Below, piece after piece: positions 35,116-38,536 of a stretch of 64,000 nt of DNA. Made by a program: the position numbers and the translations under genes. Source of the stretch: Desulfovibrionaceae bacterium (GTDB taxonomy: Bacteria > Desulfobacterota > Desulfovibrionia > Desulfovibrionales > Desulfovibrionaceae). The DNA is taken from positions 1 to 64,000 of the forward strand of contig JAQXJC010000039.1 in NCBI GenBank assembly GCA_029008115.1. The letters run 5' to 3'. Under the pieces are notes generated by a model. The model saw only the letters and a program-made list of their open reading frames with translations, was not told the DNA's origin and searched no databases. Every line of letters starts with the position of its first letter. Positions within the stretch are counted from its first letter, which is position 1.

Positions 35116-35439
35116 TCAATGGCAGCCGCAGGAACCGCAGCAGCCGCTGCCGCAGGAACCGCCCGCGGCGGGCAGCGCCACGCCAGGCTCCAGCACAAAG
35201 CCCATGTAGGTCAGATCAATCTTTACGGACTGCACCTGTTCCAGCAGGCCGGCTTCAATGCAGAAGGTGAAGCCGCCTTCCTCAAAGGTCTTGTCCTGTT
35301 CGTTGGGCTCGTCCAGCGCAAGGGCCAGACGGGGGCCGCTGCACCCGCCGGGGGCAAGATAGATGCGGATGCCACCGCGTTCCTTGCCTTCGAAGTAGGC
35401 TTCCAGTTCCCTGCGGGCATCATCAGTCAGCGTGATCAT
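35116..35439 (-). CDS. HesB/IscA-like protein, Cys form
   Basis: A 107-residue HesB/IscA-fold protein. C33 in YLAPGGCSGPRL occupies the position of the first conserved Cys of the family. The C-terminus is a metal-binding-like tail of Cys, Gly and Ser (about residues 92-107, seven positions from GGSCGSG onward including CCGSCGC). ATG 35439 has GGAG six bases upstream; the long in-frame extension to 35658 overlaps the upstream terminator and is not real. It is a close duplicate of the selenocysteine gene at 35594-35914. The role is likely iron-sulfur or metal handling, but that is family inference only. Confidence 0.88.
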   Translation of the reverse strand: MITLTDDARRELEAYFEGKERGGIRIYLAPGGCSGPRLALALDEPNEQDKTFEEGGFTFCIEAGLLEQVQSVKIDLTYMGFVLEPGVALPAAGGSCGSGCCGSCGCH

Positions 35440-36651: not shown

Positions 36652-36680
36652 TTGACAAAACGGCGCAAGAAGTACATGCT
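36652..36680 (+). promoter_or_regulatory. Promoter of leader peptide and symporter
   Basis: A perfect TTGACA (36652-36657), a 17-base spacer and CATGCT (36675-36680). Transcription would begin near 36687, just ahead of the leader-peptide ribosome site GGAAGGA. Confidence 0.55.
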
Positions 36681-36701
36681 TCCCGCCAAGGAAGGATTCT
36701 T

Positions 36702-36794
36702 ATGTTCTCCACCCTCTTCATGAACGTCTATTATTATTTCTTCTTCTACTTTAGAAGGATCATAGGGCGTGCCGTGGAGGGAATGCAGGCATAA
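36702..36794 (+). CDS. Phe/Tyr-rich attenuation leader peptide
   Basis: A 30-codon open frame with a strong ribosome site (GGAAGGA, five bases before ATG). It reads MFSTLFMNVYYYFFFYF and then RRIIGRAVEGMQA: three Tyr codons, three Phe, Tyr, Phe in a block (codons 10-17), plus two earlier Phe. Such runs are the hallmark of amino-acid-sensing leader peptides such as PheL and PheM of E. coli. It is followed 23 bases later by a terminator hairpin with a seven-T run and then by the symporter gene. Ribosome stalling for lack of charged Phe or Tyr tRNA would be expected to prevent terminator formation. Confidence 0.8.
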   Translation: MFSTLFMNVYYYFFFYFRRIIGRAVEGMQA

Positions 36795-36816
36795 GCATCC
36801 GCATATACAAACACCC

Positions 36817-36849
36817 AAAGCCGCACGGAATTTCTGTACGGCTTTTTTT
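36817..36849 (+). terminator. Attenuator terminator before symporter
   Basis: AAAGCCGCAC pairs with GTACGGCTTT (one mismatch) and is followed by TTTTTTTG. CACGG in its 5' arm can instead pair with CCGTG inside the leader-peptide gene (near codons 24-26), giving a possible antiterminator. Confidence 0.7.
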
Positions 36850-36899
36850 GTCGTGCAGGCATCCCGGCGCAGCAATGCAAGGGAGGAGGGTACACCTGC

Positions 36900-38477
36900 A
36901 TGCTGATCAAAGTTCTCATTCTTCTCTGTTTCTTTCTTGTCACGCTGGGGGTCGGCCTTGCCTGCCGCCGCAGCGCAGCGGACGTGAACGGCTTCGTGCT
37001 GGGCAGCCGCGCCGTCGGCTCGTGGCTGACGGCCTTCGCCTACGGCACGTCCTACTTCTCCGCCGTCCTCTTTGTCGGCTACGCCGGGCAGTTCGGCTGG
37101 AAATATGGCGTGGCCGCCACATGGATCGGTCTCGGCAACGCCTTCTTCGGCTCGCTGCTGGCGTGGAACGTGCTGGGACGGCGTACGCGCATCATGACGC
37201 AGCAGCTTGACAGCGCCACCATGCCCGAATTTTTCGGCAAGCGCTTCCAGTCTCCCGTGCTGCGCGTCGCAGCGGCCGCCATCGTCTTCGTCTTCCTCAT
37301 TCCCTACACCGCCTCCCTGTACAACGGCCTGTCCCGCCTGTTCGGCATGGCCTTCAACATCGACTACACCTGGTGCGTGCTGGGCATGGCCCTGCTGACA
37401 GCGGCCTACGTGCTGCTCGGCGGCTACATGGCGGCTGCCGTCAACGACTTTATTCAGGGCGTCATCATGATTTTCGGCATTACGGCGGTGATTTGGGCCG
37501 TGCTCAACGCCAATGGCGGCATGGCCGCCGCGCTGGGCTCACTGTCCGCCATTCCTTCCCCGCAGGCGCCGGGCATGCAGGGCGCGCTGATCTCCTTCTT
37601 CGGCCCCTGTCCGCTTGAGCTGCTCGGCGTCGTGCTGCTCACATCCTTCGGCACATGGGGCCTGCCGCAGATGGTGGGCAAGTTCTATGCCATCACCGAT
37701 GAAGGAGCCATTGCCAAGGGTACGGTGATTTCCACGGCCTTTGCCGTCATTGTGGCCGGCGGCTGCTACTTTCTGGGCGGCTTCGGCCAGCTCTATGCCA
37801 GCTCCGTGGAATACGCGGCTCCCGGCAAGCCCATCTTTGACAGCATCATCCCCACCATGCTGTCCGGTCTGCCGGACATTCTGCTCGGCATTGTCGTGAT
37901 TCTCGTCCTCTCCGCCTCCATGTCCACGCTGTCCTCGCTGGTCATCACCTCCGGCTCCACGCTGGCGCTGGACATCATTACGCCCATGCTCAAGCGGCGC
38001 GGCAAGAGCCCGACGGCCCAGGCCCAGCTTCTGCACATCCGCCTGCTGGTGGTATTCTTCATCGCTGTTTCCTCGGTCATCGCCATTGTGCAGGCCAAGA
38101 GCTCCGTCACCTTCATTGCCCAGCTCATGGGCATTTCCTGGGGTGCGCTGGCCGGGGCCTTCCTCGCGCCCTTCCTGTTTGCGCTGTACTGGAAGCGCAC
38201 CACGGAGGCCGCCGCGCTGGCGACCTTCATCTCGGGCGTGGGCATCATGTGCGCCTGCATGGCCTGCCGCTTCGCGGGCGTGCCCTTCATCACGCCCTTC
38301 CTCTCCTCCCCCATCAACGCCGGGGTGCTGGCCATGCTCGCCGGTCTGGTCATCGTGCCTGTAGTCAGCATCGTTACGGCCGCGCCCGAGCGTGCCGCCG
38401 TGGATGCCATGTTTGCCAGCTACAGCCGCAAGGTCACGGTCAACGCCTCCACCTCGCTGTCTGACGCGGACGACTAG
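36900..38477 (+). CDS. Sodium:solute symporter (SSS family)
   Basis: A 525-residue integral membrane protein with about 13 predicted helices, of the SSS/PutP family of sodium-coupled importers. Family features include the N-terminal helix pair, GSRAVGSWLTAFAYGTSYFSA, and the central SASMSTLSSLVITSGSTLALDI that corresponds to the sodium-site helix. The substrate is unknown from the protein alone. The Phe/Tyr leader peptide and attenuator directly upstream suggest uptake of an aromatic amino acid or related compound, which is inference. GGAGGAGGG lies about 9 bases before ATG 36900. A bidirectional terminator follows. Confidence 0.9.
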   Translation: MLIKVLILLCFFLVTLGVGLACRRSAADVNGFVLGSRAVGSWLTAFAYGTSYFSAVLFVGYAGQFGWKYGVAATWIGLGNAFFGSLLAWNVLGRRTRIMTQQLDSATMPEFFGKRFQSPVLRVAAAAIVFVFLIPYTASLYNGLSRLFGMAFNIDYTWCVLGMALLTAAYVLLGGYMAAAVNDFIQGVIMIFGITAVIWAVLNANGGMAAALGSLSAIPSPQAPGMQGALISFFGPCPLELLGVVLLTSFGTWGLPQMVGKFYAITDEGAIAKGTVISTAFAVIVAGGCYFLGGFGQLYASSVEYAAPGKPIFDSIIPTMLSGLPDILLGIVVILVLSASMSTLSSLVITSGSTLALDIITPMLKRRGKSPTAQAQLLHIRLLVVFFIAVSSVIAIVQAKSSVTFIAQLMGISWGALAGAFLAPFLFALYWKRTTEAAALATFISGVGIMCACMACRFAGVPFITPFLSSPINAGVLAMLAGLVIVPVVSIVTAAPERAAVDAMFASYSRKVTVNASTSLSDADD

Positions 38478-38500: not shown

Positions 38501-38536
38501 ACGGCGGCCGCCCCGGAATCCCGGAACGGCCGCCGT
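38501..38536. terminator. Bidirectional terminator
   Basis: ACGGCGGCCG pairs perfectly with CGGCCGCCGT around a 16-base loop, between the convergent symporter and nrdG genes. Confidence 0.6.

Follow-up and report, generated by a model that had tools for sequence, protein, structure and literature searches.

A gene for a sodium:solute symporter of the SSS family, in a 64,000-nt stretch of a Desulfovibrionaceae genome (the window), is preceded by a promoter, a leader peptide carrying a block of tyrosine and phenylalanine codons, and an intrinsic terminator. The arrangement and its recurrence in related genomes most likely reflect a ribosome-mediated attenuator of the classical type, whose common signal across these genomes is tyrosine. 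Comparative sequence evidence leaves little doubt that a leader-peptide attenuator that senses Tyr (Tyr and Phe in this lineage) controls the symporter. To the fuller reading, in which such an attenuator acts on a symporter whose cargo is an aromatic acid, we assign a probability of roughly 0.6.

The regulatory region lies on the + strand. The promoter (36652–36680) consists of a -35 element, TTGACA, at 36652–36657, a 17-nt spacer and a weak -10 element, CATGCT, at 36675–36680. With so weak a -10 it escaped a generic promoter scan; in an alignment of four genomes the pattern TTGACA-N17-CATnCT is invariant, spacing included. The ribosome-binding site of the leader peptide, AAGGAAGG (36688–36695), occurs also at two sister loci, L111 and L112. 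It is followed by a 30-codon open reading frame encoding MFSTLFMNVYYYFFFYFRRIIGRAVEGMQA (36702–36794), which starts at the ATG at 36702, ends at a TAA at 36792–36794 and has homologues at L111–L113. The putative stall region is the block YYYFFFYF (TAT TAT TAT TTC TTC TTC TAC TTT; 36729–36752), whose counterparts are YYSYFYYY, YYSCFYYY and YYYLYY in sister genomes and runs of three to seven Tyr residues in other phyla.

The terminator, AAAGCCGCACGGAATTTCTGTACGGCTTT, forms a hairpin followed by a run of seven T residues (36817–36849), with 12 pairs and a folding energy of -13.5 kcal/mol. A generic terminator scan missed this hairpin, which carries an internal mismatch. It is the same in L111 and L112, has one base changed in L113, and is nearly invariant in the alignment of the four Desulfovibrionaceae genomes. 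A direct repeat, TGCAGGCAT, flanks the terminator at 36784–36792 and 36854–36862; it is not conserved in the sister genomes. The symporter gene follows, with its ribosome-binding site GGGAGGAGG at 36881–36889 and 525 codons from the ATG at 36900 (36900–38477). Promoter, ribosome-binding site, leader, terminator and SSS gene all lie where the first-pass annotation had placed them. Since a folded hairpin at 38501–38536 (+ strand) marks a probable transcript end, and the next genes lie on the other strand, the symporter mRNA is probably a single-gene transcript; the first gene beyond, judged by eye, is presumably that of an anaerobic ribonucleotide reductase activase.

Among 288 family genomes, 20 carry a close relative of the symporter. 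In G212, G213 and G214, the three nearest (symporter identity 85–88%), the leaders MHPIFSMNAYYSYFYYYRRSCGVSCEG, MNSIFAMNAYYSCFYYYRGSCGVSGER and MNSIFAMNAYYYLYYHSGSCGVSCER precede a near-identical terminator hairpin. Orthologues in other Desulfovibrionaceae had been named as the place where absence of the leader would count against attenuation; three of the four nearest (L111–L113) have it, and only L114, the fourth nearest with a 74% identical symporter, has no leader upstream. The remaining orthologues, at 60–72% identity, come mostly from gut and rumen Bacteroidales and Clostridia. Many from Bacteroidales likewise have no leader, and nine of the 60–72% group have a Tyr-run leader (YYY to YYYYYYY) with a terminator starting 54–108 nt before the gene.

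In a scan with fixed criteria, a Tyr leader with a terminator was found in 13 of 96 orthologue upstream windows, whereas 3000 windows taken elsewhere in these loci yielded no case. These 3000 control windows are mostly coding, and a fairer control is a per-residue scan of the same upstream windows, which returned 13 cases for Tyr and between 0 and 3 for each other residue. This supports Tyr as the signal common to all the leaders, and the Phe codons as a feature of the window and the sister genus. The aromatic signal had been proposed at the outset as Phe/Tyr; the Tyr part holds throughout and the Phe part is of limited scope. Sensing of charged aromatic tRNA by a ribosome on the leader, as the same annotation had suggested, gains support from these comparisons.

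When 100 symporters were placed in a tree, all but one of the 13 leaders (12) belonged to a single clade of 29, which spans three phyla and mixes Desulfovibrionaceae, Bacteroidales and Oscillospiraceae-like Clostridia. Because of this mixture, the symporter gene probably crossed between phyla, and the attenuator perhaps moved along with it; as a label on the tree, presence of the leader requires six changes when the operon leader of L032 is counted.

According to the mechanism we propose, ample charging of Tyr-tRNA (and Phe-tRNA) would let the ribosome proceed to the leader stop codon, where it would cover the stretch that directly follows the aromatic codons. This would allow the terminator hairpin to form, and transcription would end some 50 nt short of the symporter gene. 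Under Tyr shortage, the ribosome would stall within YYYFFFYF, leaving a downstream segment exposed that could pair with the terminator's 5' arm; RNA polymerase would then read through and the symporter would be made.

Folding bears on this model in several ways. The leader region is more stable than its shuffles (z = -4.3), and its minimum free energy fold contains a long hairpin of the 1:2 type (36694–36800, + strand) that would form without a ribosome on the leader. The candidate left arm of an antiterminator is CGUGC (36768–36772), which pairs with GCACG (36823–36827) in the 5' arm of the terminator. We assessed alternative pairing on transcripts cut just before the 3' arm of the terminator, with a ribosome placed either in the aromatic codons or at the stop codon, because equilibrium folding of full-length stalled transcripts retains the terminator in many leaders, including that of the window, where the terminator still wins. 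In these truncated transcripts, upstream pairing of the window's 5' arm was 0.46 with the ribosome stalled and 0.03 with it at the stop codon; this pairing is of 5 bp only and does not exceed that of shuffles, which gave 0.38 and reached the window's value in 24% of cases. In all 18 leaders examined, the segment just 3' of the aromatic codons can pair with the 5' arm when the ribosome is stalled, and in most of them a ribosome at the stop codon abolishes most of that pairing. The pairing is strong or long in L046 (GUGAUUUGUG/CACAGAUCAC), L032, L034, L180 and L199. The modelled antiterminator is convincing in several relatives and weak in the window, where pairing is no better than in shuffles, and this step of the mechanism therefore rests on the relatives. 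An F-rich peptide upstream of L033 (MGMSFSFPFFFG) was rejected as a leader, as it is the terminator itself.

Aromatic leaders also precede operons of aromatic metabolism. In the window's own genome, a second leader, MTFASNSFFSFFYFSYWNMEACGQELL, with Phe, Tyr and Trp codons (FFSFFYFSYW) and a strong terminator, stands before an aromatic biosynthesis operon (L199 7685, which is G000:C18 at about 21684, - strand). The operon encodes, in order, ADH synthase, 3-dehydroquinate synthase II, PheA (chorismate mutase/prephenate dehydratase), a protein named by eye that we take to be EPSP-synthase-like (aroA), and TyrA (prephenate dehydrogenase). Leaders resembling MTFASNSFFSFFYFSYWNMEACGQELL are found before pheA-region genes in G001, G212 and G213. 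The paaK-ACT operon of the sister genus is preceded by Phe-rich leaders, MIRTSSVTCLLETNAFSFGFFFYFSGSRGRKDC and MLHTSSTTCLLETNAFGFGFFYFSESRGRKDC (L206 5845 and L179 2143, - strand), whose tail and terminator are closely similar to those of the aro leader of that genus; they look like an attenuator duplicated from the aro operon. One Clostridia genome whose symporter has a Tyr leader also has a Phe leader before paaK, at L218, and in the Bacteroidales locus L032 a leader with six Tyr codons heads a single paaK-ACT-symporter cluster.

The cargo of the symporter was approached through its sequence and its genomic surroundings. The protein matches PF00474 over the full profile (1–406 of 406; E = 1.4e-51), as do the SSS members PutP, PanF, MctC and ActP, and it falls below every subfamily cut-off in NCBIfam; its best NCBIfam match, the PutP equivalog, scores 174 bits against a cut-off of 515.5. 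The closest solved structures by sequence are of the SGLT type (4.8e-12). A gene for an ANL ligase, PaaK, ACT, IorA or IorB lies within the fetched flank of 41 of 100 orthologues and of 1 of 24 paralogous SSS loci, a contrast somewhat inflated by flanks of 3 kb for most orthologues and 1.5 kb for the controls. Genes in GC-rich loci, where longest-ORF calling was misleading, were assigned by tblastn. By NCBIfam, the neighbours include indolepyruvate ferredoxin oxidoreductase alpha and beta subunits above cut-off and a phenylacetate-CoA ligase-like protein below it. In G304, the genes for the symporter, an ANL ligase and IorA are adjacent. Relatives of the symporter at 42% identity also adjoin an acyl-CoA ligase gene. 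Among the 288 family genomes, strong matches to the G304-type ANL ligase occur in five, of which three have the symporter, and strong IorA matches in nine, of which four have it. PaaK-type ligases were present in all 11 genomes tested from other phyla of the leader clade.

The formation of Phe from phenylacetate in rumen anaerobes has been known since the 1960s, and we know of no importer or regulation for this route. A passage in one source, citing Allison (1965), describes rumen bacteria as synthesizing Phe from phenylacetate (PMC7356843). This route, the neighbourhood of the orthologues and the PaaK ligases of the leader-clade genomes together point to import of an aromatic acid. The symporter would most likely take up 4-hydroxyphenylacetate, phenylacetate or an arylpyruvate, and a CoA ligase with IorAB would convert the imported acid to an arylpyruvate and thence to Tyr or Phe. 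We infer that an arylacetate, 4-hydroxyphenylacetate or phenylacetate, is imported for aromatic amino acid salvage. As to the cargo first suggested (Phe, Tyr or a related aromatic), the aromatic character is retained, and the gene neighbourhood favours an arylacetate at least as much as Phe or Tyr themselves.

Two further observations concern these neighbourhoods. At the Bacteroidales locus L228 (130–3402, + strand), genes for two different PaaK-type ligases stand in tandem before an ACT gene; possibly one ligase acts on phenylacetate and the other on 4-hydroxyphenylacetate or indoleacetate. An amidohydrolase-like gene, whose product begins MIIDIHTHTFPD and has no NCBIfam match, adjoins the Clostridia orthologues L049, L056, L060, L065, L081, L086, L093, L097, L099, L104 and L105.

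The window's symporter itself has no paaK or ior neighbour, and the ANL and IorA types linked to the symporter elsewhere are absent from its genome. A different iorAB, paaK-type ligases and an ACT gene are present in that genome, all away from the symporter, and pheA and tyrA are retained, so that aromatic salvage is not obligatory. These features keep in play, as the main rival, a tyrosine/phenylalanine uptake system that is induced by Tyr shortage through the same attenuator. A Tyr leader is most simply read as a sign of Tyr or Phe import, the best match of the symporter among curated families is to a carrier of an amino acid, proline, and co-regulation with paaK would also fit, as both would relieve Tyr shortage. 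However, the orthologues adjoin CoA ligase, IorAB and ACT genes, the association of the 42%-identical relatives with an acyl-CoA ligase fits a carboxylic acid cargo, and the symporter reaches a third of the score required for PutP; we regard uptake of the amino acids themselves as possible, with the odds against it.

The reactions of IorAB and PaaK-type ligases are in principle reversible, and the pathway encoded beside the orthologues might therefore operate oxidatively, from amino acids to arylacetates, with the symporter importing aromatic amino acids or handling the acid product. Induction by Tyr shortage would nevertheless have the wrong sign for degradative uptake, and the paaK-ACT leader of the sister genus resembles the leader of the aro biosynthetic operon, which makes an oxidative role improbable.

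Arrest peptides require specific residues. Apart from the Tyr run, leader peptides of different phyla have hardly any residues in common, and the length and position of the run vary, as expected if codons are read. No T-box was detected by Rfam at any of the 18 orthologue loci searched, Clostridia included, and the absence of a T-box together with peptides that are alike only in their Tyr codons argues for codon sensing. Some leader peptides do sense free metabolites, as is described for TnaC (PMC8429421), but on this evidence it is very unlikely that the nascent peptide here arrests the ribosome on a small molecule, in place of codons that report charged tRNA. By themselves, five-codon F/Y patterns are no commoner in these genomes than in a reversed control, and their counts were for that reason not used as evidence. 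Although that null result would suit a chance conjunction of low-complexity codons with an unrelated upstream terminator and no regulation, such an explanation is contradicted by the eight consecutive F/Y codons, the leader and terminator kept in four genomes, the Tyr-specific excess in the upstream windows and the same layout at the aro and paaK operons, and can be set aside.

The proposed mechanism of attenuation is itself classical. The attenuators of amino acid operons (trp, his, pheA, pheST and leu) likewise combine a short ORF with tandem cognate codons, an early terminator and alternative pairing of its 5' arm; unlike them, the system described here would have Tyr as its signal and a sodium symporter as its target. 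The only Rfam match of the window's leader was to Leu_leader (RF00512, 36688–36849), below threshold at 28 bits against a gathering cut-off of 50. In the literature searched, RNA regulation by Tyr is assigned to T-boxes (PMC1262725). The Tyr T-box riboswitches of Firmicutes likewise respond to uncharged tRNA-Tyr and stand before genes that relieve a shortage of Tyr, whereas at the loci studied here, which have no T-box, the sensor would be a translating ribosome. In some Firmicutes, His-leader attenuators control the his operon and/or the hisXYZ transporter (PMC9413887). Those resemble the present case in that leader attenuation extends to a transporter operon, there for the amino acid that is sensed, and differ in the amino acid, in serving an ABC transporter instead of an SSS symporter, and in having no link to acid salvage. 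The first-pass annotation had stressed a transporter in place of a biosynthetic or synthetase target; the target is indeed a transporter, and hisXYZ provides a precedent for that class.

PaaK, ACT, IorA and IorB, which adjoin the orthologues, are shared with arylacetate salvage as it occurs in rumen bacteria and methanogens, where phenylacetate is converted to Phe by a CoA ligase and indolepyruvate oxidoreductase. The literature searched, a sample lacking most subscription papers, names neither a transporter nor an attenuator for this salvage. Within the same sample, no leader-peptide attenuator was described as specific for tyrosine, and none as lying upstream of an SSS symporter. The putative Tyr-responsive leader supplies a candidate importer and a prediction, that it is induced by Tyr shortage and carries an aromatic acid; if this is true, tyrosine would be a further amino acid to which leader peptides respond, and it would be so in Desulfovibrionaceae, Bacteroidales and Clostridia. 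More tentatively, and at slightly less than even odds, these loci may form a horizontally spread regulon of gut anaerobes that crosses phyla, in which Tyr/Phe leader attenuators control both uptake (the SSS symporter) and activation (PaaK-ACT) of arylacetates; the symporter would then be the first transporter known for arylacetate salvage, and its control the first leader-peptide attenuator specific for tyrosine.

Upstream of the symporter region, on the - strand, the window encodes a HesB/IscA-like protein (PF01521; 35594–35914) with an in-frame TGA (LAPGG-TGA-SGPRL). A search for a SECIS-like hairpin for this gene gave no convincing candidate. A tandem paralogue (about 35116–35436) has Cys at the position of the TGA, and the protein is probably a selenoprotein.
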